This document shows, in pieces, positions 18,368-49,771 of a DNA stretch of 64,000 bases. The notes beneath the pieces were generated by a model. It was not told the DNA's origin, ran no database searches, and saw only the letters and a program-made list of their open reading frames with translations. Within the stretch, counting starts at the first letter, position 1. The number at the start of each line of letters is the position of its first letter. The position numbers and the translations under genes are program-made. The DNA is taken from contig NZ_JANHAW010000002.1 in the NCBI RefSeq assembly GCF_024464595.1, positions 310,001-374,000 on the forward strand, given 5' to 3'. The DNA comes from Halobellus litoreus. GTDB lineage: Archaea; Halobacteriota; Halobacteria; Halobacteriales; Haloferacaceae.

Positions 18368-18373
18368 TATAAA
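18368..18373 (-). promoter_or_regulatory. TATA box for IclR regulator
   Basis: TTTATA on the minus strand, 28 bases before the chosen ATG at 18342. Confidence 0.5.
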
Positions 18374-20236: not shown

Positions 20237-20260
20237 ACACCGAGGGGGATTCCCCATACA

Positions 20261-20271
20261 CTTAAATATAT
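20261..20271 (-). promoter_or_regulatory. TATA-like box for the GcvT/LigM-like gene
   Basis: ATATATTTAAG on the minus strand centred 30 bases before the ATG at 20236. It is too close to the alternative ATG at 20257, and so decides the start. Confidence 0.55.
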
Positions 20272-20359
20272 CTTACTCGGAACCCACGGAGAAACAAAGC
20301 AGATTATCAAGAAATAATATCTAGAGAGCTATCTGCGCGTTCCGAAATTGCGACGCGGG

Positions 20360-21349
20360 CTACAGATCCAGCAGCCGCTTGATGTTGCCGGAGAGGATCT
20401 TCTCCCTGTCCGCCTCCGAGATGTCGAGGTTCTCGATCAGCGGGATGATCTCGGTCGCCCAGTACCGCCCCTTGTCGGGCCCGAAGGGGTAGTCGGCGCT
20501 GTAGACGACGTTGTCCGCGCCGAAGAACTCCAGTCCGCACTCCAGCGGATAGGACTCTCCTTGACTGCTGACGGCGGTGTCGCCGTAGATCCGATCGAAG
20601 TACGCGTCGAGCGGTTCCGAGAGGTCGGCGATCGCGGGGTTCTGGTACAGTTCCGGCTCCTCGGTCCGCGTCTGATACCACGAGCGGATCCGCCCGATCT
20701 GGTAGGGGAAGGATCCGCCGAGGTGGTGAGAGATGATCTCGAGGTTCTCGTGGCGGTCGAGGACGCCCGAGAAAATGAGGCGAGCCAGCGCGATGTTCGT
20801 GTCGAACGGCCACGCCAGCATCTTGTAGATCCAGGTGTGAGACTGGTCGTAGTCGTGCCAGTCGGCGAGCTGCGGGTGAATCCAGATGGGGATGTCGAGG
20901 TCGTCGACGGTCGCGTAGAACTCCTCGAAGTCGTCGTCATCGAGCATCCGCCCGTCGATGTTCGAGAAGATCTGGACGCCGTGCATCCCGAGGTCGTCGA
21001 TGCACCGGCGAACCTCGTCGACGTACTCGTCGGTGAGGAACGGCACCGTCGCCGTGGGGATGAACCGATCGGGGTGTTCGTCGGCGATTCGTCGGATCTC
21101 GTTGTTCGCGACGCGGGTCGCCTCCAAGGCGTCGTCGGGGTCGATCCCCTGCCAGAGCATCGGCGCGGCGAGGTTGATCACCTGCCGGTCGATCCCGTTC
21201 GCGTCCAGATACTCGATACGGCCCTCGACGTCGAACATCCGCGGTGCGTTGCGAAGGCTATCCAGTTCGGAGGTCGGGTGGACCTGCTCCAGTTCGTCGA
21301 GCGCCTCGCTCGACATTATGTGCGAGGTCGCGTCTATGATCTCGGGCAT
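20360..21349 (-). CDS. Amidohydrolase 2 (ACMSD-type) family protein, putative aromatic acid decarboxylase
   Basis: 329-residue TIM-barrel protein of the ACMSD/amidohydrolase-2 family, whose members perform non-oxidative decarboxylation of aromatic acids (aminocarboxymuconate semialdehyde, gamma-resorcylate, 5-carboxyvanillate). Metal and active-site residues visible are His10, His158 (WIHPQ), His208 (SHHLGG) and Asp286 (SADYPFG). The usual first ligand of the HxH pair is replaced by Thr8. It reads in the same direction as the LigM-like gene 120 bases downstream but has its own TATA-like box. A paralogue lies at 47938-48915. Decarboxylase activity is inferred from family; hydrolase activity is possible. 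Confidence 0.78.
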   Translation of the reverse strand: MPEIIDATSHIMSSEALDELEQVHPTSELDSLRNAPRMFDVEGRIEYLDANGIDRQVINLAAPMLWQGIDPDDALEATRVANNEIRRIADEHPDRFIPTATVPFLTDEYVDEVRRCIDDLGMHGVQIFSNIDGRMLDDDDFEEFYATVDDLDIPIWIHPQLADWHDYDQSHTWIYKMLAWPFDTNIALARLIFSGVLDRHENLEIISHHLGGSFPYQIGRIRSWYQTRTEEPELYQNPAIADLSEPLDAYFDRIYGDTAVSSQGESYPLECGLEFFGADNVVYSADYPFGPDKGRYWATEIIPLIENLDISEADREKILSGNIKRLLDL

Positions 21350-21373
21350 CGTTGGCTGCTTGGTGTGATATTA

Positions 21374-21380
21374 CTTAAAT
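21374..21380 (-). promoter_or_regulatory. TATA-like box for amidohydrolase 1
   Basis: ATTTAAG on the minus strand, 28 bases before the ATG at 21349. It is flanked by a loose ATTAC/GTAAT inverted repeat at 21370-21391 that could be an operator. Confidence 0.45.
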
Positions 21381-21516
21381 CATTGTGTAATTTAGGTGAA
21401 CGAGCGCACGGGCGCGACAGCGGTAAGATAGCAGAAACCGACTAGTGCGGACTTTTCCGATCGGTAGCGCTGATCCGGTCGCAAAGCCTAATACCGTTAC
21501 CCGGATACGTCGTAGT

Positions 21517-22962: not shown

Positions 22963-22997
22963 GGCATCTCGTTCGGCTCTCTCGGTTTCTCCCCGTC

Positions 22998-36114: not shown

Positions 36115-36177
36115 GTCGATAATCGAGAAACGAGTTGTGCGCGTACTGAGATGCGAAGGGGGACGCAGTCTCGGAGA

Positions 36178-37575
36178 ATGACGCGGCTCGCTACTGAACG
36201 GGTTCCGGACTTCGCGACGCTCTCGGTTCCGTTAGCGGTGCTCGCCGCGGGGGCCGTTCGGCTCGGCTCGCCGTTCGCGCCGGCGGGAGCGACGATGTTA
36301 GCGATCACTACGCTCTGTATCGTCCTCTGGGTCGGGAACCTCGTCCCACCGGCGTACACGGGCGTGCTCTGTCTGGGGCTCGTCGGGTTCGCGTTCTCCC
36401 TCGACCTCGCGCTGTCGGGATTCAGTTCGCCGGCGACCTGGCTGATCGCGTTCGGCTTGGTGATGGGCGAAGCGACGCGTCGGAGCGGGCTCGCGGAGTG
36501 GGCCGGTCGCTGGGTCATCCACCGCGTCACGCTCGAATCGCCCGCGGCGAAACCCGCGCGAACGTACCGCCGGCTGTTGGTCGGCCTGTCCGCGGCGGGG
36601 CTGTTCCTCGTGTTGGTCATCCCGGTCGGCATCGTCCGCGTGCTGGTGCTCGCGCCAGTCGTGCTCGAAGTCGGCGAGCGGTTCGACTCACCGCGGGTGC
36701 GACTCGGCCTGTTCTTCGGTCCCATTCTGGTCACGTATCTCGGGACCTTCGCCGTCCTCACGGGCGGCTCGCCGAACATCATCGTGCTCGGCATCCTCGA
36801 ATCGGTCGCGGGGACCTCGATTCCCTGGACCGAGTGGTTCGCTCTGATGTTTCCGGTGATGGGCCTCGGACGACTTCTCCTAATCAGCGGCGTCGTCTAC
36901 GCGATGTACCGGCCGCCGTCGGACCTGCAGTTGACGGACACCGCGAGCGAACTGCGGTCGATGTCGAAGTCGGAACGCCGGATGTTCGGCTTTCTCGTGG
37001 CCGGCGTCGCCGTGTGGGTGACCGACGTGTTCCACGGCTTCCATCCGGTGTACGGCGCGCTGCTGGTGGTCGTGCTCGTGTTCCTCCCGCGCGTCGGCAT
37101 CGCGGACTTCGAGGAGACCGTCGGCGAGGTCGACTTCTCGATCCTGTTCTTCGTCGCCGCCGTGCTGGCGATCGGCGAGGGACTGACGCGAACGAACGTC
37201 GCCGGCGCGCTCGCGGAGGCGATGTTGACCGTCGTCCCGACGGACGCCTCGCTGTTCGTCGTCCTCGCGATCGTGTTCTCCGCGACCGTCGCGCTGATGG
37301 TCGTGATGGGCGGACTCGCGGCCGTGAGCGTCGCGACGCCGATCGTGGTCGCGCTCGCGTCGGACGCGGGAGTTCCGCTGGTCCCGGTCGTGTTGGCGTC
37401 GACGGCCGCGCTGGGCGTCCCGTTCATCCCGTATCAGTCGGCCGTGCTCGTCGTCATCTTGGCGTACGACATCGTCGACGCGCGGGAACTGATCCGCGTC
37501 ACCGGCGTCGTCGCGATCGCGACCGCGGGGCTCCTGATCCCGGTGCAACTCGGAATCCTCTCGGCGGTGTTCTGA
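36178..37575 (+). CDS. SLC13/DASS-family anion symporter
   Basis: 465-residue membrane protein with about 11-12 helices. The SNT-like motif region appears as LTGGSPNIIVLG (residues about 195-206) and its C-terminal partner is around PFIPYQSAVLVV, fitting divalent-anion:Na+ symporters (DASS) that carry dicarboxylates or sulfate. The start is uncertain: ATG 36178 has a weak GGAGA before it, while ATG 36151 would add nine residues. The gene precedes the aldehyde:ferredoxin oxidoreductase in the same direction. Import of a dicarboxylic aromatic breakdown product is possible but unproven. Confidence 0.75.
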   Translation: MTRLATERVPDFATLSVPLAVLAAGAVRLGSPFAPAGATMLAITTLCIVLWVGNLVPPAYTGVLCLGLVGFAFSLDLALSGFSSPATWLIAFGLVMGEATRRSGLAEWAGRWVIHRVTLESPAAKPARTYRRLLVGLSAAGLFLVLVIPVGIVRVLVLAPVVLEVGERFDSPRVRLGLFFGPILVTYLGTFAVLTGGSPNIIVLGILESVAGTSIPWTEWFALMFPVMGLGRLLLISGVVYAMYRPPSDLQLTDTASELRSMSKSERRMFGFLVAGVAVWVTDVFHGFHPVYGALLVVVLVFLPRVGIADFEETVGEVDFSILFFVAAVLAIGEGLTRTNVAGALAEAMLTVVPTDASLFVVLAIVFSATVALMVVMGGLAAVSVATPIVVALASDAGVPLVPVVLASTAALGVPFIPYQSAVLVVILAYDIVDARELIRVTGVVAIATAGLLIPVQLGILSAVF

Positions 37576-37759: not shown

Positions 37760-39430
37760 ATGCTACACGCCAACGGTTCGCTGTTGACGGTCGACGTGGG
37801 CGACCGTACCGCGGAGACGACGAACATCGACGACGAACTCGAGGAATTCATCGGTGGGCGGGGAGTCTCGACGAAATTAGCGCACGACCGGATCCCCTTC
37901 GACGCAGACCCGCTCGGCCCGGAAAACCGGGTCTACCTCGCCTCGGGCCCCCTCCAGCAGTCATCGATGAGTTTCACCGGCCGGATGAACATGACCGGCC
38001 TCTCGCCGCTGACCGACGGAGTACTCTCCTCGAACGCCGGCGGCTACCTCTCGCGGAACTTCGTCGGCACCGGTCACTCCGTTGTCGAGGTCGCCGGCGA
38101 GAGCGACGACCTCCTCGCAATCCACGTCACCGACGAGGGCGTCGAGTTCGAGGAGGTGCCGGAACTGGCGGGTGCGACCGTCCCCGAGGTGACCGAAGAA
38201 ATGAACGAGCGGTACGGCCTCGAGGCGGAGAACCTCGTCACGATCGGTCCCGCGGGCGAGAACGAGGTCCGGTTCGCCGCCGCGATGACCTACGACGAGC
38301 GGGCGTTCGGCCGCGGCGGCCTGGGTGCGATCCTCGGCTCGAAGAACGTCAAGTGCCTCACCTTCGAGGGCGATTCCGCCCCCGACGTCGACCTGCCGAA
38401 CGAGGACGTGCATATGGACGTGCACCGTCAGGCGGCCACGAGCGACGACATCTTCCGCCGACAGGGGACGACCCACCTCGTGCAGATTCTCAACGACAAC
38501 TTCTCGCTGCCGACGCGGTACTTCTCGGAGATGTCGTTCGAGCACGCCGAGAAGATCAACGGCGACCGCGTCGAGGAGAAAAAGTACAAGAAGGCGGCGT
38601 GTTCGGTCTGTGCGTTCGCCTGTAAACTCCCGACCCGCGACGAGGAGCGCGGCGTGGAAACAGAGGGTCCGGAGTTCGAGACCGTAATGGCCTTCGGCAG
38701 TAACTCCGGCGTCGGCGACATCGTCGACGTCATGAAGTCCAACGGCCTCTGTGACGATCTGGGGATGGACACCATCTCCTGTGGAAACACCATCGCCGCC
38801 TACCTCGCGAGCGAGGACGAGTTCGGCAACGTCGAGTTGATCCACGAACTCATCGAGAAGATCGCCCGTCGCGAGGGCGTCGGCGACAAACTCGCCGAGG
38901 GCATCGACCGCATCCACGAAGACCTCAACGTCGAGAACTGGACCGTCAAAGGGATGGACTTCGCCGCCCACGACGGCCGCGTCGTCCACGGACAGGGACT
39001 CTCCTACGCGGTCGCGAACCGCGGTGCCGACCACATGTACTCGACGCTGATGATTCCGGAGTACAACGACGTCATCCCCGCTGAAGGGACTGCTGGAAAG
39101 GCCGACTTCCTGATCGATCACGAGAACCGCAACGCGGTCCGCGACTGTGCGGTACTCTGCCAGTTCGGGCTCGGTCGCGTCATCGAGGAGGAGGTCTTCG
39201 AGGCGCTCTTCGACGAGGACTACGAGGACATCCTCGCCATCGGCGACCGCATCGTGAACCTCGAACGGCACTTCAGCAACCAGCGCGGCCGCGACGCCGC
39301 CGACGACCGCCTGCCCTACGACCTGCCCGACCTCGACTCCTCGATCAAAGAGTACTACGACGCGCGCGGTTGGAACGACGACGGCGTCGTCCCCGGTGAC
39401 CTCGTCGCCGACTACGCGCAGGCGGACTGA
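37760..39430 (+). CDS. Aldehyde:ferredoxin oxidoreductase family protein
   Basis: 556-residue tungsten/molybdenum-pterin enzyme of the AOR family, interconverting aldehydes and carboxylic acids with ferredoxin. The [4Fe-4S] ligands appear as Cys281-x2-Cys284-x3-Cys288 (CSVCAFACK) with the distal Cys467 (VLCQF). Pterin-binding GRGGLGA is near 185-190. The N-terminus matches the family (LLTVDVG...GGRGVSTKL). It is shorter than the 605-residue Pyrococcus enzyme. ATG 37760 begins the homologous region; the frame continues upstream through the tandem repeats without similarity. It could oxidise aromatic aldehydes or reduce acids; direction and substrate are unknown. Confidence 0.83.
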   Translation: MLHANGSLLTVDVGDRTAETTNIDDELEEFIGGRGVSTKLAHDRIPFDADPLGPENRVYLASGPLQQSSMSFTGRMNMTGLSPLTDGVLSSNAGGYLSRNFVGTGHSVVEVAGESDDLLAIHVTDEGVEFEEVPELAGATVPEVTEEMNERYGLEAENLVTIGPAGENEVRFAAAMTYDERAFGRGGLGAILGSKNVKCLTFEGDSAPDVDLPNEDVHMDVHRQAATSDDIFRRQGTTHLVQILNDNFSLPTRYFSEMSFEHAEKINGDRVEEKKYKKAACSVCAFACKLPTRDEERGVETEGPEFETVMAFGSNSGVGDIVDVMKSNGLCDDLGMDTISCGNTIAAYLASEDEFGNVELIHELIEKIARREGVGDKLAEGIDRIHEDLNVENWTVKGMDFAAHDGRVVHGQGLSYAVANRGADHMYSTLMIPEYNDVIPAEGTAGKADFLIDHENRNAVRDCAVLCQFGLGRVIEEEVFEALFDEDYEDILAIGDRIVNLERHFSNQRGRDAADDRLPYDLPDLDSSIKEYYDARGWNDDGVVPGDLVADYAQAD

Positions 39431-39548: not shown

Positions 39549-40592
39549 TCAGTCGTCGTTCTCGGGCTCCTGTGACTTGTACCGGTCGCGGAGGTGGTGG
39601 GCCCCCTCGTCGGACCAGTCGGTCTCGTCGGTGGGCACGTAATCGTACTGTCGGCGGGCGTGCTGTCCGGCCTTGCCGCCCCACCAGACGAACCCGTCAG
39701 AGCCGTCTTCGGGGGTCCACGTGATCGTCTCCCACTCGGGGTCGAAGATCAGGTAGCCGCCGGCGAAGATCTCCACCTTGTTGCCGGAGGGTTCGAGGTA
39801 GTAGTTGAAGTGCGCCTGGCTGATACCGTGCCGGGCGGGGCCGCCCACGAACTCGATGTCGCGTTCCCTGAGGAGGTCGGCGGCGCGTTCGAGTTCCCCG
39901 CGGTAGCCGCCGTCCATGTAGTAGGCGACGTGGTCGATCTTGTCGACGACGTTTGCGTCCGGCGGTGGCGTGATGAAGGCGACTTCGTGGACGAGCGGAC
40001 TCACGCTCATCCACGCGCCGACCTGGTTTCCGTCGGGATCCAGCCCCTCCTCGCGGAGTTCGAACCCGAGGACGTGCTCGAAGAAGTCGACGCACTCGGG
40101 GACGTTGCTCACGTTGAAATTCACGTGGTCGATGCGGCGGAAGCCCGCACCGCGTTCCGGTTTGCGGGCGGGCTGGTTCTTCAACCGTGGCTTGTTCTCG
40201 TCTGCGACCGTGTCGAACGCGCGGTCGACATCGTAGACCAGTTCCATATACTCGGGCGTCGCGCCCGGGTAGTCGAACCTGAGGGCGCGCCCCTGGCCGG
40301 GTTCGGCTCCGTCCTCGACCCACTCGGTGTCGTATCCAGCATCCTCGATCCGCTTCTCGAAGTCCTCGAAGTCGCTCTCGTCTTCGAGCATCCAGGCGAC
40401 GTGCTTGCAGCCCCAAGTGTCGCCGTCGCGGATGATGAGGGTGTAATCCTGCCAGTCGCCGAAGGCCGCCAGGTAGTACGCGTCCGCCTCCTCGTGGCGG
40501 ACGTACATCCCCATCGTGTCGCGGAAGTGTTCCAGCGACGCCTCCAGATCCGGACAGTACAGTTCTGCGTGTGCAAGGGTTGCAATACCCAT
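39549..40592 (-). CDS. Extradiol ring-cleavage dioxygenase, VOC superfamily (copy 1)
   Basis: 347-residue two-module VOC enzyme resembling catechol 2,3-dioxygenase. The Fe(II) triad of the C-terminal module is complete: His156 (RIDHVNF), His221 (KIDHVAYYM), Glu274 (KVEIFAGG), with the family Tyr in HFNYYLEPSGN. It would open an ortho-diol next to the hydroxyls. It carries a 60-residue C-terminal extension beyond the usual 305-315, with aromatic and charged residues. It is divergent from copy 2, sharing a 146-base control region. Two different dioxygenases suggest two diol substrates. Confidence 0.82.
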   Translation of the reverse strand: MGIATLAHAELYCPDLEASLEHFRDTMGMYVRHEEADAYYLAAFGDWQDYTLIIRDGDTWGCKHVAWMLEDESDFEDFEKRIEDAGYDTEWVEDGAEPGQGRALRFDYPGATPEYMELVYDVDRAFDTVADENKPRLKNQPARKPERGAGFRRIDHVNFNVSNVPECVDFFEHVLGFELREEGLDPDGNQVGAWMSVSPLVHEVAFITPPPDANVVDKIDHVAYYMDGGYRGELERAADLLRERDIEFVGGPARHGISQAHFNYYLEPSGNKVEIFAGGYLIFDPEWETITWTPEDGSDGFVWWGGKAGQHARRQYDYVPTDETDWSDEGAHHLRDRYKSQEPENDD

Positions 40593-40612
40593 ATGTCGAG
40601 TCGATAATTATG

Positions 40613-40622
40613 TTATTTATTT
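40613..40622 (-). promoter_or_regulatory. TATA-like box for dioxygenase copy 1
   Basis: AAATAAATAA on the minus strand, centred 25-26 bases before the ATG at 40592. Confidence 0.55.
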
Positions 40623-40667
40623 GTTACTATGGTTTCGAGTGTCTGGGAAGCAGAAACAACAATTTGT

Positions 40668-40677
40668 CTACCGGTAG
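40668..40677. promoter_or_regulatory. 10-bp perfect palindrome between divergent dioxygenase genes
   Basis: CTACCGGTAG, roughly midway between the two TATA boxes. It is a plausible shared operator, though short enough to occur by chance. Confidence 0.3.
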
Positions 40678-40710
40678 CCAATACCCAAAGTTGCTCATCT
40701 TAGAAAAATG

Positions 40711-40718
40711 TATATAAG
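40711..40718 (+). promoter_or_regulatory. TATA box for dioxygenase copy 2
   Basis: TATATAAG centred 25 bases before the ATG at 40739, one of the best TATA boxes in the window. It implies strong leaderless expression. Confidence 0.65.
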
Positions 40719-40738
40719 AGAACTACTAACCGTTTTGT

Positions 40739-41683
40739 ATGGCCGAACTAGCCAAACTTGGACATATAGCGTTCGAGACGCCCGATCTCGAGGAGTCCCT
40801 GTGGTTCTTCCGGGACCTAATGGGGATGAAAGTCGTCGAACGCGACGACGACACCGCGTATCTCTGTGCGCTCCGGGATTACGAACACCACACGATGAGC
40901 CTCACGGAGGGCGAGCGGGGGGCGGTCGACCACATCGGCTTCCGCGCGAAGGATCCCGAGTCCGTCGAGGAGTACTACGACCGGTTCGAGGAACTCGGTC
41001 GGGACGTCTGGTGGACCGAGGACGGCCACGAGGCCGGGATCGGCGACTCGATCATGTTCGAATCGGAGTCGGGCCACCGGTTCGAGATCTACTACGAGAT
41101 GGAGAAGCCGGACATCGACGGCGAGCAGCGCTCGAACATCCCGATGCGTCGGTACAGCCCCGAGTACGCGAACCGGGTCTACCCCCAGCGCATCGACCAC
41201 ACGCACGTCCAAGACGGCAATCCGGAGGCGACCTCCCGGCTCTTCGAGGAGGAGTTCGGGATGGGCCTCAACGAGGTCTTCAAGTCCGAAGACGGCACGA
41301 CCTGGGGCTGGTGGCACGCGACGACGCCGCTGCCGCACGACATCGCCGTCCATCGGCTCGAAGAGGACGAGACCGAGTTCCACCACATCGCCTACCACCT
41401 CGACCACCTCCAGGACCTGTGGGACGCCGCGGACATCCTCTCGGAGAACAACGTCGAGATCGACGGCGGCCCGGGCAAACACGCCATCACGAACGCGAAC
41501 TATCTCTACGTGAACGACCCCGCCAGCGGCATCCGCCTGGAACTGTTCGCCGGGCCGGGCTACCTCAACTTCGAACCCGACTGGGAGACGGTCGTCTGGC
41601 AGGAGGACATCGGCTCGGAGTCCGATCACCAGTGGTTCGGCACGCAGTACAGCCTCGGCGGCATTCCGTACACGGACCGCTGA
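40739..41683 (+). CDS. Extradiol ring-cleavage dioxygenase, VOC superfamily (copy 2)
   Basis: 314-residue enzyme of catechol 2,3-dioxygenase length. The Fe(II) triad is His154 (RIDHTHV), His216 (FHHIAYHL) and Glu268 (RLELFAGPG), all in the C-terminal module, and the N-terminal module is the usual non-metal-binding copy. It would convert catechol or a substituted diol to a 2-hydroxymuconate semialdehyde-type product, the substrate for the aldehyde dehydrogenase or decarboxylation branch encoded nearby. It is convergent with the hydratase gene (30-base gap). Confidence 0.84.
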   Translation: MAELAKLGHIAFETPDLEESLWFFRDLMGMKVVERDDDTAYLCALRDYEHHTMSLTEGERGAVDHIGFRAKDPESVEEYYDRFEELGRDVWWTEDGHEAGIGDSIMFESESGHRFEIYYEMEKPDIDGEQRSNIPMRRYSPEYANRVYPQRIDHTHVQDGNPEATSRLFEEEFGMGLNEVFKSEDGTTWGWWHATTPLPHDIAVHRLEEDETEFHHIAYHLDHLQDLWDAADILSENNVEIDGGPGKHAITNANYLYVNDPASGIRLELFAGPGYLNFEPDWETVVWQEDIGSESDHQWFGTQYSLGGIPYTDR

Positions 41684-41713
41684 GTCGCGGCGTCGGAAAC
41701 GCCCCGTTCTGCA

Positions 41714-42496
41714 CTATTCTTCGGCGAGTCGAGCGTTGACCGTCCCGATCGAGGTGAACTCGACGGAGACGACGTCGCCCGGGGCCAGATCGACCGCGGG
41801 CGTCAGCGAACCGCTCAGGACGACGTGCCCGGACTCGATCCGTTCGTCGAGGTCCGACAGCGTGTTCGCGAGCCACGCGACCGACCGGGCGGGGTGATCG
41901 AGGACGGCCGCGCCGACGCCGGAGGATTCGAGCGTGCCGTTCTTGTAGAGTTTGACGCCTTCCAGCGAGAGGTCCGTGTTGGCGAGACTCGTCTGCTCGC
42001 CGGCGACGTAGAGCGCCGAGGAGGCGTTGTCGGCGATCGTGTCCTGAATCCGAATGTCCCAGTCGCGCACGCGGCTGTCGATGACCTCGACGACGGGGAG
42101 TACGGAACCAGTGGCGTCGAGCACGTCCAGATACGTCACCGGCGGTTCGAGCGGTTCCTCCATCACGAAGCCGATCTCGGGTTCGATCCGCGGCTGGATC
42201 AGGTCCTCGCCGGGGATCTCGCGACCCTCGACGAACATCGTGTCCAGCAGTCGACCGTAGTCGGGTTCGTCGACACCCAGCTGCTCCTGAATACCGTCGC
42301 TGGTCAGCCCGATCTTGTGGCCGACGATCTCGGCGCCATCGTCGAGTCGGCGGTCGATGAAGCGCGTCTGAATGTCGTAGGCGTCCGCCATCGACAGGTC
42401 GTGCTCGGCGGTGAGCCGGCCGATCGGCGACTTGGTTCGAAGCGCGTCGTAGAGCGCGTCGGCCAACTCCTCGCGTGTCTCGTCTGGGACTGCCAT
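41714..42496 (-). CDS. 2-oxopent-4-enoate hydratase / 4-oxalocrotonate decarboxylase family (copy 1)
   Basis: 260-residue FAH-fold enzyme of the XylJ/XylI (MhpD/DmpE) family. Metal-binding acidic pair Glu106/Glu108 is in RIEPEIGFVM, VGHKIGLTS is near 58-66, and a second acidic cluster lies in LPVVEVIDSR. The family either hydrates 2-hydroxypenta-2,4-dienoate to 4-hydroxy-2-oxovalerate or decarboxylates 4-oxalocrotonate. Its paralogue at 46921 probably does the other step, as XylI and XylJ do in bacteria; which is which cannot be told here. Confidence 0.82.
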   Translation of the reverse strand: MAVPDETREELADALYDALRTKSPIGRLTAEHDLSMADAYDIQTRFIDRRLDDGAEIVGHKIGLTSDGIQEQLGVDEPDYGRLLDTMFVEGREIPGEDLIQPRIEPEIGFVMEEPLEPPVTYLDVLDATGSVLPVVEVIDSRVRDWDIRIQDTIADNASSALYVAGEQTSLANTDLSLEGVKLYKNGTLESSGVGAAVLDHPARSVAWLANTLSDLDERIESGHVVLSGSLTPAVDLAPGDVVSVEFTSIGTVNARLAEE

Positions 42497-42619
42497 AGGC
42501 TCGCTACCGCCGGCGGCGTCAAATAGGTTGGTGATCCGGTCGGTCCCGCGGTCGGGTCGCCGCCGAAGTGACTCGGCGCCGCCGACTCGAGAGCGCTATC
42601 TGCGACGCGGATCCCGGGC

Positions 42620-42626
42620 TTTTATG
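42620..42626 (+). promoter_or_regulatory. TATA-like box for small VOC protein
   Basis: TTTTATG centred 28 bases before the ATG at 42651. Confidence 0.45.
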
Positions 42627-42650
42627 CGATATTACCACCGAGGAACCGGT

Positions 42651-43037
42651 ATGGACGTCATCCACAGCGCGATCTGGGTATCGGACGTCGAGGAAACGCT
42701 TGACTTCTACGTCGGCGCGCTCGGCCTGGAGAAGACGAACGAGTTCGTCGGCGGCGACGACGCCCGCAACGTCTACGTCCGCGGCGAGAGCGAGACGGAG
42801 ATCCAGTTCAAACACAACCCGGATCACGACCTCGGGGAGCCGTCCACCCGACGATTCGACCACCTCGCTATCGAGGTCGACGACACCGACGGCGCGGTCG
42901 AGCGACTGCGAGAGGAGACCGACACCGAACTCCTGCGGGGTCCGCTCGACTCCACCGGCGCGAGCGCGCGCGTGGCGTTCATCACGGACCCCGACGGACA
43001 CGTCATCGAACTGGTCGAACCGCGCGAGGACCTCTGA
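42651..43037 (+). CDS. Single-module VOC (glyoxalase/dioxygenase fold) protein
   Basis: 128-residue one-module vicinal-oxygen-chelate protein. N-terminal MDVIHSAIWVSD and C-terminal FITDPDGHVIELVE are typical, with candidate metal ligands His5, Glu/Gln in EIQFKH, His (FDHLAIE) and Glu (VIELVE). Such proteins can be glyoxalases, isomerases or small dioxygenases. Its place among meta-cleavage genes suggests action on a pathway intermediate or detoxification of an aldehyde by-product, but no reaction can be assigned. The TATA-like box supports the ATG at 42651. Confidence 0.75.
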   Translation: MDVIHSAIWVSDVEETLDFYVGALGLEKTNEFVGGDDARNVYVRGESETEIQFKHNPDHDLGEPSTRRFDHLAIEVDDTDGAVERLREETDTELLRGPLDSTGASARVAFITDPDGHVIELVEPREDL

Positions 43038-43114
43038 GGTAGGTCGACGACGACAATCGAACCGGACAGACGGACGGAAAAGTCGAGGCCGAACCGCGGA
43101 GTCGAACCGACAGG

Positions 43115-44173
43115 TCAGTCGTCCGAGGCGGCTTCCGCGGCCGCCCCGGACTCCTTCTCTTCGGCGAGCCGCGAGGCGACGTCGGTGATGAGGTCCTCCT
43201 GCCCGCCGACGACCTCCATCTCGCCCAGTTTGACCAGGATCTCGCGGGGGTCGATGTCGTACTTCTCGCCCGCGCGCCGGGTGTGTCGGAGGAACGACGA
43301 GTAGACGCCGGCGTAGCCGAGCATCAGCGAGTCGTTGTCGAGCTCCGGCATCTCGTCGTCGTCGATCATCGGGACGAGGACGTCCTCGGCGGCGTCCATC
43401 ACGCCGAAGAAGTCCGGGTTGATGTCGTAGCCGGCCTTCTCCAGGACCCCGACGAGGACTTCGATTTGCGCGTTGCCCGACCCGGCACCGAGGCCGCGGA
43501 GGCAGCCGTCGGTCGTCACCGCGCCCTCTTCGAGCGCCGCGAGCGTGTTGCCGATGCCGAGCCCCAGGTTGTTGTGCGCGTGGAAGCCGACGTCGATGGA
43601 GAGTTCGTCGACGAGCAGACTGATGCGGTCCCGGACGTCGTTGGGAAGCAGCGCGCCCGCGGAGTCCATCAGATAGACGGCGTCGGCGCCGTACTCCTCC
43701 ATCAGTTTCGCCTCCTTCAGGATCCGCTCGGGCTCGGCCATATGCGAGAGCATCAGCAGGCCGTTCGCCTCCAGGCCGCGGTCCTTGACGTAGCCGAAGT
43801 GGTCCTCGGAGATGTCGGCCTCGGTGACGTGGGTCGCGATCCGACAGATGTCCGCCCCGTGGTCGACGGCCATATCGAGTTCCTCGACCGTTCCGATGCC
43901 CGGGAGCAGGAGTACCGAGAGTTCGGTGTCGGTGAGTTCGGGCACGACGGCGTCGAGGTACTCCTCGGTCGTGGCCGCCGAGAAGCCGTAGTTGATCGAG
44001 GAGCCGCCCATCCCGTCGCCGTGTGAGACCTCGACGACGTCCATGTCAGCGGCGTCGAGGGCCGCCGCGACGTCGGCCATCTCCGCGGGGGTGAACTGGT
44101 GGTCGACGGCGTGCATCCCGTCGCGGAGCGTCATATCGACCAGCCGGACGTCCGAATCAGTCATCGCTGACAC
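43115..44173 (-). CDS. 4-hydroxy-2-oxovalerate aldolase
   Basis: 352-residue DRE-TIM metallolyase (DmpG/MhpE/XylK family) that splits 4-hydroxy-2-oxovalerate into pyruvate and acetaldehyde. Active-site motif TLRDGMHA is near the N-terminus, metal-binding HAHNNLGLG is near 198-206, and the C-terminal helical domain that docks the dehydrogenase partner is present. It overlaps the upstream acetaldehyde dehydrogenase gene by 17 bases (8 if the second ATG at 44164 is used), fitting the known channeling complex of these two enzymes. Confidence 0.9.
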   Translation of the reverse strand: MSAMTDSDVRLVDMTLRDGMHAVDHQFTPAEMADVAAALDAADMDVVEVSHGDGMGGSSINYGFSAATTEEYLDAVVPELTDTELSVLLLPGIGTVEELDMAVDHGADICRIATHVTEADISEDHFGYVKDRGLEANGLLMLSHMAEPERILKEAKLMEEYGADAVYLMDSAGALLPNDVRDRISLLVDELSIDVGFHAHNNLGLGIGNTLAALEEGAVTTDGCLRGLGAGSGNAQIEVLVGVLEKAGYDINPDFFGVMDAAEDVLVPMIDDDEMPELDNDSLMLGYAGVYSSFLRHTRRAGEKYDIDPREILVKLGEMEVVGGQEDLITDVASRLAEEKESGAAAEAASDD

Positions 44174-45101
44174 CTCCGATCGCGTCGGCGTCGACTTCGT
44201 GCGTTGCTACCCGTTCGGCCGCTCCGAGTGCTGCGCTTGTCATAATGTCCAGATTGCCCGCATACGGTGGGAGATGCTGCCCCTCGCCCTCGACTTCGAG
44301 CATCGTCGTGAGGATGATCTTGTCTTCGAGGTCGAACGCGACGTCGTCCTGATCTTTCACCGTCGGTTCGAGCGTGACGTCGTACCCGGGGACGTACTCC
44401 CGGACCGCCGATTCGATCCGCGAGACGGAGTCTTTGACCTCGCCGACGTCCGTGTCCTCGTGAACCATCGTGTAGACGGTGTTCCGCATCATGATCGGCG
44501 GCTCCGCCGGGTTCAGCGTGATGATCGCCTTCCCCTCGTCGGCGCCGCCGACCTCCTCCAGGCCGGCCGCCGTCGTCTGCGTGAACTTGTCGATGTTCTG
44601 TCTCGTCCCCGGGCCGGCGCTCTTCGAGGCGATGTGCGAGAGCATTTCGGCATATTTGACGTCCGCGACGCGGTCGACCGCGTGGACGAGCGGAATCGTC
44701 GCCTGTCCCCCGCAGGTGACCATATTGATGTTCTCGTGGCCGCTTTCGACGACGTCGTCGACGTTGACGACCGGGACCGTGTAGGGGCCGATCGCCGCCG
44801 GCGTGAGGTCGACCGCGAACAGGCCGAGGTCCTCGTAGACCGGGGCGTGCTGCTCGTGGATGCCCGCGCTCGTGGCCTCGAAGACGAGGTCGAACTCGTC
44901 GGCGTGCTCTTTGACGCTGTCGATGCCGTCGGTGCCGACACCGACGCCCTCGTCGACGGCCGCCTGGAGCCCCTCCGATTCCTCGACCGGGAAGATGCCG
45001 ATCATCCGCTGGAGATCGATCTCGTCCCCGCGGTCGAGTATCTTGTACATCAGGTCGGTTCCGATGTTACCCGGACCGACGATCGCCGCATCTAACGACA
45101 T
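44157..45101 (-). CDS. Acetaldehyde dehydrogenase (acylating)
   Basis: 314-residue DmpF/MhpF/XylQ-type enzyme that oxidises acetaldehyde to acetyl-CoA with NAD+ and CoA. Rossmann motif VGPGNIGTDLM is at the N-terminus, and catalytic Cys is in NMVTCGGQATIP near residue 131. It forms a channeling complex with the aldolase encoded next. It is first gene of the leftward pair, with a TATA-like box at 45127-45133 and a palindrome (45110-45126) between box and start. Confidence 0.9.
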   Translation of the reverse strand: MSLDAAIVGPGNIGTDLMYKILDRGDEIDLQRMIGIFPVEESEGLQAAVDEGVGVGTDGIDSVKEHADEFDLVFEATSAGIHEQHAPVYEDLGLFAVDLTPAAIGPYTVPVVNVDDVVESGHENINMVTCGGQATIPLVHAVDRVADVKYAEMLSHIASKSAGPGTRQNIDKFTQTTAAGLEEVGGADEGKAIITLNPAEPPIMMRNTVYTMVHEDTDVGEVKDSVSRIESAVREYVPGYDVTLEPTVKDQDDVAFDLEDKIILTTMLEVEGEGQHLPPYAGNLDIMTSAALGAAERVATHEVDADAIGGVSDD

Positions 45102-45109
45102 ACGTTCCG

Positions 45110-45126
45110 GTACGAATCTATCGTAC
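45110..45126. promoter_or_regulatory. 17-bp inverted repeat, candidate operator of the aldolase/dehydrogenase pair
   Basis: GTACGA-ATCTA-TCGTAC, perfect 6-base arms. It lies between the TATA-like box and the ATG at 45101, a repressing position. Confidence 0.42.
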
Positions 45127-45133
45127 TAATAAC
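45127..45133 (-). promoter_or_regulatory. TATA-like box for acetaldehyde dehydrogenase
   Basis: GTTATTA on the minus strand, about 29 bases before the ATG at 45101. Confidence 0.45.
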
Positions 45134-45264
45134 TTCGCTTGGCACTGGTGGGACGCACCGGGTTCCGGCGGCTGGCGGAGCCGAAAGACGGGAGGAGCGA
45201 AGTCGAGACCGACGATCCCGGCGAGGTCGGACGACAGCCGCGGGGAGCCGTCGGGCCGCCCCGC

Positions 45265-46749
45265 TCAGAACAGGTAGTCGCGCGGCTCCCGCTGGACCGA
45301 GGTCCACTTCGTCTCGGTGAACTCGTCGATGATCCACTTGCCGTTGTACCGCCCGAGGCCGGAGTCCTTCACACCGCCGAACGGCACGTGCGGCTCGACG
45401 TTGACCGGCTGGTCGTTGACGTGCATCATCCCGACGTCGATCCGATCGGCCACGTCGCGAGCGTGTCCGCGATCTGCGGAGTGGACGGAGCCGGCGAGGC
45501 CGTACTCGGTGGCGTTCGCGAGTTCGACCGCCTCCTCGTCGTCACCGAACGGGATGATCGGCGCGACGGGGCCGAAGTGCTCGTTACACGCCGCGGCCAT
45601 ATCGTTCGTGACGTCGGTGATGACGGTCGGCTCGACGAACAGGCCGTCGGACTCGCCGCCGGTGAGGAGCGTCCCGCCCTCCTCGACCGTGCGCTCGACG
45701 TAGTCCATCATCTCGTCGCGCTGGGACGCGTTGATGATCGGCCCGATCACGACGTCGTCGTCGGTGGGATCGCCGATCTTCAGCTCGGAAGCGCGCTCGG
45801 CCAGGCGTTCGGCGTACTCGTCGTAGAGAGACTCGTGGACCAGGTGGCGGTTGATCGAGATGCACACCTGTCCCTGGTTCCAGAAGGACCCGAAGACGCC
45901 GGCGTCGACCGCCTGATCGAGGTCGGCGTCTTCGAGGACGACGTGCGGGTTGTTGCCGCCGAGTTCGAGGGCGGGGAAGGCGAAGTGCTCGATGGCGTTC
46001 TCGCCGACGAGTCGACCCGCGCCGGTCGATCCGGTGAACGCGACGACGTCGCAGTCGGGGTGGGCCGCCGTGCGATCGCCCGCGACGGACCCTCGTCCGG
46101 GGACGACGTTGAGCACGCCGTCGGGGAGGCCGGCCTTCTCGAAGAGCCGAGCGAGCAGCAGGCCGCCGGAGATCGTCGACTCCTGGGCGGGCTTGAGCAC
46201 GACGCTGTTCCCGAGTGCGATCGCGGGCGCGACCGCGCGGATCGAGAGCTTCATCGGGACGTTCCACGGCGAGATCACGCCGACGACGCCGACGGGCTCC
46301 TTCCGGATGATGTTCTCCTTGCCGGGGATCTTCGACTGATTGTGACCGCCGGAAGAGCGGAACGCGAAGGACGCGGCGTCGTGGACGAAGGTGACGGTCC
46401 CGCCGTGCTCGATGTCCTGCCGCGGCTTCGCGGCCCCCGTCTCGACGGCGAGGATCTCTCGGATCTCCGCCTCGTACTCGTCGATCAGGTCGGCCGTCCG
46501 GCGGACGACCGCGGCGCGCTCGTCGGGCGTCGTCTCCGCCCACGCCGTCTGTGCGCGGGTCGCCGCCTCGAACGCGCGATCGACGTCCTCCTCGGTCGCG
46601 GCCGGAACCTCAGTAATCGACTCCTGCGTCGTCGGGTTTCGGATGTCGATCCGATCTCGCCCTTCGGGCGTCTCCCAGTCGCCGTCGATGTAGAGTCCGC
46701 CCCAGGGCGCGTCGATCGAGATCTCCTGGTCGTGGTCGGCTTCTTGCAT
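45265..46749 (-). CDS. Aldehyde dehydrogenase, candidate 2-hydroxymuconate semialdehyde dehydrogenase
   Basis: 494-residue ALDH with Asn163 (SPWNVP), Glu262 (LELGGNNP) and Cys296 (NQGQVCIS). The LxLGGNNPxxV and NQGQxC stretches match the benzaldehyde/vanillin-dehydrogenase branch as much as XylG-type enzymes. Position inside the meta-cleavage gene group, next to the decarboxylase-type gene, favours oxidation of the ring-cleavage semialdehyde. Oxidation of an aryl aldehyde is the alternative. It is divergent from the hydratase/decarboxylase copy 2 with a palindromic operator candidate in between. Confidence 0.83.
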   Translation of the reverse strand: MQEADHDQEISIDAPWGGLYIDGDWETPEGRDRIDIRNPTTQESITEVPAATEEDVDRAFEAATRAQTAWAETTPDERAAVVRRTADLIDEYEAEIREILAVETGAAKPRQDIEHGGTVTFVHDAASFAFRSSGGHNQSKIPGKENIIRKEPVGVVGVISPWNVPMKLSIRAVAPAIALGNSVVLKPAQESTISGGLLLARLFEKAGLPDGVLNVVPGRGSVAGDRTAAHPDCDVVAFTGSTGAGRLVGENAIEHFAFPALELGGNNPHVVLEDADLDQAVDAGVFGSFWNQGQVCISINRHLVHESLYDEYAERLAERASELKIGDPTDDDVVIGPIINASQRDEMMDYVERTVEEGGTLLTGGESDGLFVEPTVITDVTNDMAAACNEHFGPVAPIIPFGDDEEAVELANATEYGLAGSVHSADRGHARDVADRIDVGMMHVNDQPVNVEPHVPFGGVKDSGLGRYNGKWIIDEFTETKWTSVQREPRDYLF

Positions 46750-46774
46750 ACGTCGTGGACAACGATCGCAACGA

Positions 46775-46782
46775 GTAAAATG
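46775..46782 (-). promoter_or_regulatory. TATA-like box for the semialdehyde dehydrogenase
   Basis: CATTTTAC on the minus strand, centred about 29 bases before the ATG at 46749. Confidence 0.45.
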
Positions 46783-46827
46783 ATGTCGACCCCGGAACCG
46801 CTTGTGAAATTAAATAGACCGCGTGTA

Positions 46828-46847
46828 TGTAACTTAATTCAGTTACA
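46828..46847. promoter_or_regulatory. 20-bp inverted repeat, candidate operator
   Basis: TGTAACT-N6-AGTTACA with perfect 7-base arms and an AT-only-but-one spacer. It is midway in the 171-base divergent region between the semialdehyde dehydrogenase and the hydratase/decarboxylase. It is the longest-armed palindrome in the catabolic block apart from those at 14673 and 49772. Confidence 0.45.
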
Positions 46848-46883
46848 CTGACCTCGCAGTCGCGGTCGAAAATCCGCCTGTCG

Positions 46884-46893
46884 AAAGTATAAT
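46884..46893 (+). promoter_or_regulatory. TATA-like box for hydratase/decarboxylase copy 2
   Basis: AAAGTATAAT centred about 31 bases before the ATG at 46921. A GGAG lies 4-7 bases before the ATG. Confidence 0.5.
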
Positions 46894-46920
46894 GAGCGCA
46901 CCGGCGAACCGTAGGAGTGT

Positions 46921-47706
46921 ATGCCACTCAGCCAGGACGAGGTCGACCGCCTCGCGACGAAACTCCACGAGGCCTACGACGAGAAGGAACCGATCGAACC
47001 GCTGACCGACGACGTCGAGTTCTCCACTGAGGACGCCTACCGTATCCAGTTCGAGGTGTTCGATCGACTCAGCGCGGGCGGCCGCGACGACGTCGTGGGC
47101 CACAAACTCGGTCTCGTCAGCGAGGCGAAGCAGGAGCAACTGGGCATTCCGGAGCCGATCTTCGGCTACGTCGCCCACGAGACGGTACTCGAGAACGAGC
47201 CCGTCCCGACCGACGAGATGATCGCCCCGCGGATCGAGGCCGAGATCGGGTTCATCCTCGACGAGGATCTGACGGCCCCGGTCTCGACGATGGACGTCCT
47301 CACGGCGACGCGGGCAGTCGTCCCCGTGGTCGAGATCCTCGAGAGCCGGTATCAGGGCTGGTCGATCCCCTCCGCCCAGGACGTCATCGCGGATCTCACC
47401 TCCGCCGGCAAGGTCATCGTCGGCGAGCAGTACCGCGACGTGACGGACGTCGACCTGAAGATGGAGAGCGTCGCCGTGTCGGTGAACGGCGAGGTCGAAG
47501 CCACCGGTATCGGCGGCGACATTATGGGGAATCCCGCTCGACCCGTCGCCTGGCTCGCAGACCGACTGGCCGACGTCGACGACGGCCTCCGCGAGGGCGA
47601 ACTCGTAATGAGCGGCGGTATCTCGGCCGCCATCGACATCGAACCCGGCGACGTCTACACCGTCGAGTTCGCGAATCTCGGTACGATGGAAATCCGCGCG
47701 GATTAG
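46921..47706 (+). CDS. 2-oxopent-4-enoate hydratase / 4-oxalocrotonate decarboxylase family (copy 2)
   Basis: 261-residue paralogue of the gene at 41714, with the same RIEAEIGFIL metal motif, VGHKLGLVS and VVPVVEILESRYQ. Differences around the active site (IPEPIFGYV against VDEPDYGRL in copy 1) suggest a different substrate. Because it is divergently paired with the semialdehyde dehydrogenase, it is the better candidate for 4-oxalocrotonate decarboxylase, leaving the hydratase role to copy 1. This split is inference. Confidence 0.8.
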   Translation: MPLSQDEVDRLATKLHEAYDEKEPIEPLTDDVEFSTEDAYRIQFEVFDRLSAGGRDDVVGHKLGLVSEAKQEQLGIPEPIFGYVAHETVLENEPVPTDEMIAPRIEAEIGFILDEDLTAPVSTMDVLTATRAVVPVVEILESRYQGWSIPSAQDVIADLTSAGKVIVGEQYRDVTDVDLKMESVAVSVNGEVEATGIGGDIMGNPARPVAWLADRLADVDDGLREGELVMSGGISAAIDIEPGDVYTVEFANLGTMEIRAD

Positions 47707-47721
47707 CGCGTCGACCCAGAC

Positions 47722-47738
47722 GTTTTCCAGCTGAAAAC
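47722..47738. repeat. Inverted repeat after hydratase/decarboxylase copy 2, possible terminator
   Basis: GTTTTC-CAGCT-GAAAAC, followed at 47744-47757 by TTTTC-TCCG-GAAAA. Either could form a weak terminator hairpin for the convergent genes. The half-site TTTTC/GAAAA also resembles the palindrome at the nearby IclR gene (49772-49790). Confidence 0.35.
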
Positions 47739-47937
47739 TCTGCTTTTCTCCGGAAAACGGGCTATAGAACCCGTATAACGTCAATATTCGGAGCACACCC
47801 ACTCGTAGATAACATATGTACGCCTGTTTTCTGTCTCCGTGCAGTTCCCGCCTCAAGCGTCGTTTCGGCCCGTCGTTCTGTGTGTGAAAACCGGCTGGGT
47901 TCGTCGAGGCGGGAGTTGTGGTTTCTGACGTAGATCC

Positions 47938-48915
47938 CTAGGAGATCAGGGAGTAGAGATTACCGGCGAAGATATTCTCCCGGGTGTCGCCGTCGACGTC
48001 CATCCGGTCGACGGCGTCTATGGTGTACTCGACGGTCTGCCGGCCCCGCTCGGGGCTGAAGGGGTAGTCGGTCCCGAAGACGACGTTGCCGTCGTCGAAG
48101 AACGACTCCGCGCATTCGAGCGCAGGTGTCGAGCCGGAGACGGCCGTGTCGGCGTTGAACTTCTTGAAGTACTCCTCGGCGGGCTTCGACAGTTCGGCGG
48201 CGTGTTCGTGGTACCCCTGATAGTTCTCGGGATAGGTCATCCGCTGCTCGTAGAACATTTCGATCCGACGACCGTAGAACGGAACCATCCCGCCGCCGTG
48301 GTGGGAGACGATCTCCAGGTCGGGGTACTCCTCCATCACTCCCCCGAAGACCAGTCGCGACAGCGCGAGCGTCGTGTCGAACGGCCAGCCGAACAGCCGG
48401 TGTTCCATGTACTCGGAGGCCCAGTCGTACCACTCCCAGAGTTGCGGGTGCATCCACAGCGGGGTGTCCGTGTCCTCCGCGCGCTCGAAGAGCGGCCAGA
48501 ACCGATCGTCGTCGAGCGGCCGGCCGTCGATGTTCGAGAAGATCTGGACGCCGGCCATATCGAGCTCGTCGACGCACCGGTCGAACTCCGCGAGGAACTC
48601 CTCGCTCACCGTCGGAATCGTCCCGACCGGGATGAAGTCGTCCGGGTGTTCGTCCGCAAGGCGACGGATCTCGTCGTTGGCTAGGCGGGTGATGTCCAGC
48701 GCGAGGTCGTGGTCCATCCCCTGGAACATCGTCGGCAGCGCGAGCGTGATGACCTGCTTGTCGACGCCGTAGTCGGCCATATCCTGCTTCCGTTGGTCGT
48801 GGTCCCAGAGGAACTCCGGCCGGCCGGAGAGGCCCTGAAAGCCGAACTTCTCCGTGAGGTCCTCGAAGAAGCCTTCCGTCAGCACGTGCGTGTAGCCATC
48901 GACGATTTCCGGCAT
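47938..48915 (-). CDS. Amidohydrolase 2 (ACMSD-type) family protein, putative aromatic acid decarboxylase (copy 2)
   Basis: 325-residue paralogue of the gene at 20360; both start MPEI(I/V)D and keep the same order of motifs. Visible active-site residues are His10, His156 (WMHPQ), His205 (SHHGGGM) and Asp283 (GTDYPFS). The first ligand of the canonical HxH pair is replaced, here by Tyr8. The family performs metal-dependent decarboxylation or hydrolysis. Located between the meta-cleavage genes and an IclR regulator that reads in the same direction, it is likely part of that regulon. Confidence 0.78.
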   Translation of the reverse strand: MPEIVDGYTHVLTEGFFEDLTEKFGFQGLSGRPEFLWDHDQRKQDMADYGVDKQVITLALPTMFQGMDHDLALDITRLANDEIRRLADEHPDDFIPVGTIPTVSEEFLAEFDRCVDELDMAGVQIFSNIDGRPLDDDRFWPLFERAEDTDTPLWMHPQLWEWYDWASEYMEHRLFGWPFDTTLALSRLVFGGVMEEYPDLEIVSHHGGGMVPFYGRRIEMFYEQRMTYPENYQGYHEHAAELSKPAEEYFKKFNADTAVSGSTPALECAESFFDDGNVVFGTDYPFSPERGRQTVEYTIDAVDRMDVDGDTRENIFAGNLYSLIS

Positions 48916-48938
48916 ATACGGGTAGTACGCGCGACCGA

Positions 48939-48957
48939 AGTGATAATTGTTCTCACT
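48939..48957. promoter_or_regulatory. Inverted repeat upstream of amidohydrolase copy 2
   Basis: AGTGA-N9-TCACT with an AT-rich spacer that overlaps the probable TATA region of the gene starting at 48915. Candidate operator. Confidence 0.3.
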
Positions 48958-48975
48958 ACGTCTCGCAGTCTCGCC

Positions 48976-49743
48976 TCACTGCCGGGCGTACTTGATGTCG
49001 AGGGCGAGTTCGTGCGCGGTGCTCTCGACCTCGGCGGTGATGTCGTCGTCGAAGCCGGCGTTACCCAGCCGCTTCGTCGGCGCGGAGATGCTGATCGCTC
49101 CCAGGACGTCGCCGCCGAGTTTGACGGGCGCGCCGATGCAGGTGAGTCCCTCGGTCCGCTCCTCGTCGTCGGTCGCGTACCCCCGCTCGCGGATCGTTTC
49201 CAGCTCCTCGAACAGCTCCTCGCGGTCGGTGATCGTGTTCTCGGTCGCCTCCGGCAACCCCCACTCGTCGACGATCGACTCGACGCGGTCGCGAGGGAGC
49301 GACGCGAGAATCGCCTTTCCGATCCCGATGTTGTGCAGTCGGAGCCGGTAGCCGACGTGCGTGTCGAGGTGGACCGCGTAGTTCCCGCGCGACTGGTACA
49401 GATACACCGCCCGTCCGCCCTCCTCGGTCGCGAGGTTCGCGAGCATTCCCGTGTCGCTGGCCAACTGGTCGATCTTCGACCGGCCGTACTGGTACAGCGG
49501 GGACCGACTCCGAACGTGGCCGCCGAGCGAGAGGAACTTCAGACTGAGCGAGTACTCGTCGCCCTCTTTCTCGACGTAGCCGTGCTCTCGAAGCGTGCTG
49601 AGGTGGTTGTGGATGCCGCTCTTGCTCATCTCCAGCCGGTCTTCGAGTTCGTTGAGCCGGAATCCGTCGTCGGTGTCGAGCGTTTCGATCAACCGCAGCG
49701 TCTTTTCGCTCGTCCGAACGGGGTGGTTGGCCTTCTTCGTCAT
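48976..49743 (-). CDS. IclR-family transcriptional regulator
   Basis: 255-residue IclR protein: winged HTH (about 10-65, EDRLEMSKSGIHNHLSTL) and effector domain from about 80 (IGIGKAILASLPRDRV, VLGAISISAPTKRL). It is the third of its family here and the closest regulator to the meta-cleavage genes. ATG 49743 is selected because similarity begins there; nine further codons are open. A 19-base palindrome 29-47 bases upstream may serve autoregulation. Confidence 0.87.
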   Translation of the reverse strand: MTKKANHPVRTSEKTLRLIETLDTDDGFRLNELEDRLEMSKSGIHNHLSTLREHGYVEKEGDEYSLSLKFLSLGGHVRSRSPLYQYGRSKIDQLASDTGMLANLATEEGGRAVYLYQSRGNYAVHLDTHVGYRLRLHNIGIGKAILASLPRDRVESIVDEWGLPEATENTITDREELFEELETIRERGYATDDEERTEGLTCIGAPVKLGGDVLGAISISAPTKRLGNAGFDDDITAEVESTAHELALDIKYARQ

Positions 49744-49771
49744 ACGTATCCGATGCGGCCCGAGACACATA

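Follow-up and report, generated by a model that had tools for sequence, protein, structure and literature searches.

A 64,000-nucleotide stretch of the haloarchaeon Halobellus litoreus (C2:310001-374000, hereafter the window; genome of 3.86 Mb in 10 contigs) contains, at window positions 39549-49770, a gene cluster that we consider fairly probable to be a haloarchaeal meta-cleavage module in which two entry enzymes converge on 2-hydroxymuconate-6-semialdehyde (HMS). The best reading of the gene set is a meta-cleavage route ending in pyruvate and acetyl-CoA, and the conserved core of the cluster is the pair formed by the extradiol dioxygenase DioB and the ACMSD/LigW-type decarboxylase AmidoH. 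Because a decarboxylase of this type is paired with DioB in the core, a carboxylated catechol is probably among the substrates; it would be cleaved and then decarboxylated to HMS. A first-pass annotation of the window had proposed that a catechol-type diol is turned into pyruvate and acetyl-CoA; the meta route remains the best reading, but the AmidoH-DioB core suggests a carboxylated catechol rather than a simple catechol route. Such chemistry is known chiefly in bacteria and, among archaea, in the thermophile Saccharolobus.

In one branch of the proposed pathway, a toluene-4-monooxygenase (T4MO)-like system encoded elsewhere in the genome would make catechol, which the dioxygenase DioA would open. 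In the other, DioB would act on a carboxylated catechol. The simplest candidate is protocatechuate, which would undergo 2,3-cleavage and may come from a LigM/DesA-like O-demethylase; AmidoH would then strip the carboxyl group from the product to give HMS. An aldehyde dehydrogenase (ALDH) would oxidise HMS to 2-hydroxymuconate, which would ketonise to 4-oxalocrotonate either spontaneously or with the small VOC protein. HydB would then decarboxylate and HydA hydrate, before 4-hydroxy-2-oxovalerate aldolase (HOA) would cleave to pyruvate and acetaldehyde and acylating acetaldehyde dehydrogenase (AcDH) would yield acetyl-CoA. We infer the substrates, the order of steps and the regulation from sequence, linkage and precedent.

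Chance open reading frames (ORFs) are ruled out, since the cluster is kept at 80-99% identity in related genomes. Every gene that the first-pass annotation had named between 39549 and 47706 is an intact ORF at its position, whereas AmidoH and the IclR gene, which belong to the same conserved cluster, had been overlooked (Table 1). Order and strands are the same in eight Halobellus-like genomes, (AOR)-DioB-HydA-VOC-HOA-AcDH-ALDH-HydB-AmidoH-IclR and then GDH and PyrB. Two of them depart from this locally: one genome is without DioB, and in another a contig begins inside the cluster. Other haloarchaeal families have the same genes in rearranged order.

Table 1. Features of the window, with the evidence for each assignment (window coordinates)
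Feature	Position	Strand	Basis
DioA, type I extradiol dioxygenase, catechol 2,3-dioxygenase-like	39549..40592	-	TIGR03211, PDB 3lm4, Fe ligands
DioB, second type I extradiol dioxygenase	40739..41683	+	TIGR03211, HpaD, AmidoH linkage
HydA, 2-oxopent-4-enoate hydratase-like, FAA hydrolase family	41714..42496	-	TIGR03220
VOC, small glyoxalase I-fold protein	42651..43037	+	Invariant residues, fold match, HOA linkage
HOA, 4-hydroxy-2-oxovalerate aldolase	43115..44173	-	TIGR03217, DmpG_comm
AcDH, acylating acetaldehyde dehydrogenase	44157..45101	-	TIGR03215
ALDH, proposed HMS dehydrogenase	45265..46749	-	Aldedh, TIGR03216, conserved cluster position
ALDH/HydB divergent promoter region	46749..46921		Two conserved TATA-like elements and dyad
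HydB, 4-oxalocrotonate decarboxylase-like, FAA hydrolase family	46921..47706	+	TIGR03218/TIGR03220
AmidoH, ACMSD/LigW-type decarboxylase	47938..48915	-	Profile vs PDB, Pfam Amidohydro_2, invariant residues
IclR-family regulator	48976..49770	-	Family match; palindrome before start codon
DASS/CitMHS-type anion transporter, neighbour in synteny	36142..37575	+	
Aldehyde:ferredoxin oxidoreductase (AOR) family, neighbour in synteny	37760..39430	+	
LigM/DesA-like tetrahydrofolate-dependent aryl O-demethylase	18893..20257	-	PDB 5tl4, NCBIfam
Second amidohydrolase, gamma-resorcylate decarboxylase/ACMSD/LigW-like, adjoins O-demethylase	20360..21349	-	

Extradiol dioxygenases and the DioB-AmidoH core

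The claim that both dioxygenases have intact Fe(II) triads was borne out by alignment to MndD and XylE: His156/His221/Glu274 are complete in DioA and His154/His216/Glu268 in DioB, along with the catalytic His202 and Tyr264 of the former and His200 and Tyr257 of the latter. The active-site residues of DioB are invariant among 18 orthologues, and both proteins have the two-domain VOC fold of type I extradiol dioxygenases (Pfam PF00903/PF22247). Against the catechol 2,3-dioxygenase (C23O) model TIGR03211, whose NCBIfam equivalog cut-off is 320 bits, DioA scores 272 bits and DioB 245 bits (HpaD, 193 bits); by these scores they are related to C23O without being certified members. The best PDB match of DioA is 3lm4 (1.5e-45). 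3-Hydroxyanthranilate/ACMS chemistry is ruled out, since DioA and DioB are VOC-type and 3-hydroxyanthranilate dioxygenase is a cupin.

DioA, DioB, AmidoH and the hydroxylase alpha subunit TmoA were surveyed in 391 Halobacteria. DioB-type genes were found in 27 genomes and AmidoH in 28. DioA, present in six genomes, belongs to the window cluster in just two of the eight Halobellus-like genomes examined; it is a rare add-on to the cluster and not part of its core. There are other extradiol loci as well. Contig C3 of this genome carries two more paralogues without an equivalent of the catalytic His200 (L008:9649-14820 and L009:9635-10576), one of them accompanied by an HpcH-type aldolase, a VOC protein, an AMP ligase and an amidohydrolase. 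At L013:10001-20393 of Halobellus rufus, DioA adjoins a DHDPS-family gene that may be the nahE-like gene described in this species, and the locus also has a GcvT-family protein and two PEP-utilising mobile domain proteins.

AmidoH, assigned by Pfam to Amidohydro_2, has the invariant residues H10, H156, H206, D283 and R217; its AlphaFold model is of low confidence (pLDDT 65.9). When a profile of 19 AmidoH proteins was compared with the PDB, the nearest characterised structures were ACMSD (1.3e-36) and 5-carboxyvanillate decarboxylase (1.7e-35). 4-Oxalomesaconate hydratase reached only 3.4e-12, and identity with this enzyme or with a LigY-type hydrolase is ruled out by the far weaker scores. Among 22 genomes with AmidoH at at least 59% identity, DioB lies near AmidoH in 20, directly adjacent in 13 (37-286 bp) and in the same cluster in seven, the exceptions being G275 and G094. 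In Pseudomonas PTH10, the extradiol dioxygenase OpaC and the ACMSD-like decarboxylase OpaD turn 2,3-dihydroxybenzoate into HMS, and PraH of Paenibacillus is a related decarboxylase that acts in the 2,3-route for protocatechuate (PMC6362003). Given the likeness to ACMSD and these precedents, we read the DioB-AmidoH pair as a probable cleavage followed by decarboxylation to HMS. As in PraA/PraH and OpaC/OpaD, the dioxygenase is genetically tied to an ACMSD-like decarboxylase and enzymes that process HMS are present. DioB is therefore proposed to be a carboxylated-catechol (protocatechuate 2,3-type) dioxygenase.

Several observations weigh against this assignment and the pathway built on it. The equivalog cut-offs are missed by DioA, DioB, ALDH, HydA and HydB alike. 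The residues R243 and R293, which we take to be the carboxylate-binding arginines of homoprotocatechuate dioxygenase (HPCD), are not conserved in DioB. In the tree, the window DioB lies on a long branch found only in Halobellus, sister to the AmidoH-adjacent clade of other families, while the C1 paralogue from the same genome (L010) groups with the AmidoH-adjacent DioB clade, so the substrate of the window DioB may have changed. One AmidoH genome, G275, has the cluster without DioB, and six DioB genomes are without HOA; the DioB-AmidoH pair can therefore function without an HOA-type lower pathway. On the hydroxylase side, the genes inspected next to TmoA include no TmoF reductase, and no genome-wide search for it was made. 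Separately, at L058 and L059 (genomes G026 and G311) a DioB-AmidoH pair without HOA may feed a different lower route.

Two alternatives draw on these points. Both dioxygenases might act on catechol or alkylcatechols as 2,3-dioxygenases, with AmidoH serving elsewhere, for instance as an aromatic-acid decarboxylase feeding catechols in the style of LigW or 2,3-dihydroxybenzoate decarboxylase. This agrees with the missing HPCD arginines and with the nearly equal closeness of AmidoH to ACMSD and to 5-carboxyvanillate decarboxylase, which acts on a ring acid; however, a decarboxylase working before cleavage needs no tight coupling to one dioxygenase clade of the kind seen in 20 of 22 genomes, and an identity of ~34% between DioA and DioB makes a common substrate less expected. 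We regard this alternative as unlikely. Somewhat less improbable, though still doubtful, is a cluster that shares the lower enzymes but serves vicinal diols other than protocatechuate, such as gallate, 3-O-methylgallate from syringate, or 2,3-dihydroxybenzoate. The last of these is the substrate of OpaC/OpaD (PMC6362003). The long Halobellus-specific branch of DioB also fits such a change, as does the O-demethylase, which scores slightly higher for DesA (syringate) than for LigM (432 vs 411 bits). Gallate-type cleavage, however, normally yields oxalomesaconate and then pyruvate/oxaloacetate, leaving no use for HOA and AcDH.

The T4MO-like locus and a possible catechol supply

The absence of a ring hydroxylase, noted in the first-pass annotation, is true of the window only; a search of the genome found a T4MO-like set beside a DioA paralogue as well as a flavin hydroxylase-family gene 0.3 kb beyond the window edge. 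At C1:1.02 Mb (L007), genes for TmoB, the Rieske protein TmoC, the effector TmoD, the beta subunit TmoE and the alpha subunit TmoA directly adjoin this paralogue, which is 92% identical to DioA. They make up a complete T4MO-like hydroxylase (L007:5826-9583), with each subunit type identified by Pfam; TmoA matches the T4MO alpha subunit (3ri7) at 5e-142, carries both ExxH diiron motifs (DELRH and DEARH) and occurs in four of the 391 Halobacteria.

Halobellus rarus, Haloglomus halophilum and a Natronolimnohabitans also have DioA linked to the toluene monooxygenase (TMO) genes. In Haloglomus halophilum, TMO genes, DioA and lower-pathway genes lie within one 21 kb stretch, and in the Natronolimnohabitans HOA and AcDH adjoin the DioA-TMO genes before the contig ends. 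An IclR regulator lies beside the L007 TMO genes. Also beside them (L007:3894-4682) is a stand-alone XylR_N + V4R phenol-sensor protein of the MopR/DmpR type (MopR, 4.6e-32) without AAA+ and without an obvious DNA-binding domain; to our knowledge, sigma-54 is expected to be absent from an archaeon. In another haloarchaeon, an ORF of 442 aa, possibly an inserted element, lies between TmoE and TmoA (L064:10447-11775), and the TmoA and DioA matches at that locus each contain one TAA in the search read-out.

Lower pathway, tautomerisation and promoters

HOA, which has the DmpG_comm domain, and AcDH both exceed their NCBIfam equivalog cut-offs (TIGR03217, 468 vs 286 bits; TIGR03215, 378 vs 282 bits), and their genes overlap by 17 bases, confirming the overlap described earlier; by sequence they are a bona fide aldolase/acylating acetaldehyde dehydrogenase pair. 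For the ALDH and the two hydratase/decarboxylase paralogues, intact ORFs and family membership were upheld but identity at the equivalog level was not. HydA favours the hydratase model (TIGR03220, 257 bits) over the decarboxylase model (211 bits), while HydB is nearly tied (TIGR03218, 191.5 bits; TIGR03220, 189.8 bits). ALDH matches Aldedh at 1.3e-163 and the HMS dehydrogenase model TIGR03216 at 330 bits, under the cut-off of 693, which makes it a member of its class without a specific call; its position in the cluster is conserved, and we propose an HMS dehydrogenase role.

No 4-oxalocrotonate tautomerase (4-OT) was in view in the window, and this could be extended to the whole genome, in which PF01361 reached at best 17.9 bits (cut-off, 22) and PF14552 gave no match; 11 of 15 cluster-bearing genomes likewise had no PF01361 match over it. 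The VOC protein has a glyoxalase I-like fold (match to E. coli GlxI, 1f9z), in which the site H5-Q52-H71-E120 and the basic residues K28, K54, R96 and R107 are invariant among orthologues. Among 48 genomes searched, VOC orthologues (at least 56% identity) occurred in 18 of the 21 that bear HOA and in no others, always beside HOA. With no 4-OT and VOC tied to HOA, the enol-keto step is likely spontaneous or VOC-assisted, and VOC is a candidate tautomerase or helper; a metal-assisted enol-keto shift would be compatible with glyoxalase-type chemistry. Spontaneous tautomerisation is the simpler explanation. In a study of Saccharolobus, the step was taken as spontaneous, isomerisation having been spontaneous in extracts of two bacteria (PMC7820114). 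We accordingly lean slightly towards VOC being solely a glyoxalase-like detoxifier of reactive aldehydes outside the pathway, with purely spontaneous tautomerisation: its nearest solved structures are glyoxalase I, and some genomes without DioB have homologues at a greater distance (46-53%). Against it stand the confinement of close orthologues to the side of HOA and the invariance of the four basic residues. The boldest combination, a protocatechuate 2,3-type (carboxy-catechol) meta pathway with a metal-dependent VOC tautomerase beside the aldolase plus a T4MO and C23O route from benzene or phenol to acetyl-CoA, seems to us improbable as a whole.

The divergent arrangement with separate TATA boxes, also part of the earlier description, is supported as well. 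TATA-like boxes lie 25-35 nt upstream of the start codons of DioB, HydA, VOC, AcDH and AmidoH, and the ALDH/HydB region has two such elements, all of them kept in 6-8 Halobellus-like genomes; because these distances are constant, transcription of the cluster as several short units is supported. The ALDH/HydB region also contains a perfect dyad, TGTAACT-N6-AGTTACA (46828-46847), partly conserved in relatives as GTAAC-N8-GTTAC, and a conserved palindrome, CATTTTCACACAGAAAATG, lies immediately ahead of the IclR start codon. Beyond these two elements, a search of the upstream regions found no operator common to all cluster genes. The IclR protein probably controls the short transcripts.

Neighbouring aromatic genes and relation to known systems

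The O-demethylase aligns with the LigM structure 5tl4 (1.8e-98 over 440 residues) and misses the equivalog cut-offs of both LigM (580 bits) and DesA (800 bits); it is a possible source of protocatechuate, with a linkage not found in all genomes. It belongs to a possible methoxylated-aromatic cluster at 17584-24743, which has an IclR gene, the O-demethylase, the decarboxylase-family amidohydrolase, an ALDH and a TPP enzyme. Left of the window, a gentisate-dioxygenase-family gene and a flavin hydroxylase (L065:1805-2959 and L065:16616-17860) have CoA ligase and thioesterase-like neighbours. With the O-demethylase, the second amidohydrolase, this flavin hydroxylase and this gentisate-dioxygenase-family gene, which lies 16 kb beyond the window, a region apparently devoted to aromatic catabolism occupies this side of the contig, reaches leftwards past the window edge and holds both gentisate-type and meta-type genes. 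The meta set that had been set against the gentisate route is thus present, but gentisate genes are not replaced by it.

The open literature describes haloarchaea that grow on benzene, on phenolics or on benzoates, for the most part with genes of the gentisate or ortho type. Neither a complete meta pathway nor a toluene monooxygenase from haloarchaea turned up in that literature, most subscription papers being beyond our reach. The genome supplies specific candidate genes for both, and the VOC-HOA linkage gives a concrete candidate for a 4-OT replacement. If correct, our interpretation would explain the aerobic loss of benzene, toluene, ethylbenzene and xylenes (BTEX) and phenol near salt saturation, add a second archaeal lineage with a meta pathway besides Saccharolobus, and offer a source of salt-stable ring-cleavage enzymes.

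The haloarchaeal gentisate route (Haloferax D1227, Haloarcula D1; PMC6140281) is a distinct pathway to which the cluster genes do not belong, even though this genome has a gentisate-dioxygenase-family gene. The bacterial xyl/dmp catechol operons have the same lower-pathway enzyme families in the same reaction order; unlike them, the haloarchaeon has split promoters, an added decarboxylase and the hydroxylase on another contig; it has no 4-OT, and no C23O ferredoxin was seen. Compared by gene set rather than by PraA/PraH sequence, the cluster resembles pra (Paenibacillus JJ-1b) and opa (Pseudomonas PTH10; PMC6362003) in joining an extradiol dioxygenase and an ACMSD-like decarboxylase to reach HMS, and in the HMS dehydrogenase, decarboxylase, hydratase, aldolase and AcDH that follow; it differs in lacking a gene for the tautomerase, in being divided into several short transcripts where those systems form a single unit, and in its IclR regulator. 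The closest archaeal system is that of Saccharolobus (Sulfolobus) solfataricus, whose phenol meta pathway is evidenced by metabolites and transcripts and whose TmoABCDE genes (Sso1225-1233) occur with the C23O Sso1223 (PMC7820114, PMC3859572). Both have an archaeal T4MO-type hydroxylase adjoining a catechol 2,3-dioxygenase, and neither has an assigned tautomerase. The candidates for the last steps in Saccharolobus are non-orthologous, and no acetaldehyde dehydrogenase is known there (PMC7820114), whereas in the haloarchaeon a bona fide HOA/AcDH pair is accompanied by an ACMSD-like decarboxylase and a conserved VOC protein, with the lower pathway gathered in one cluster.

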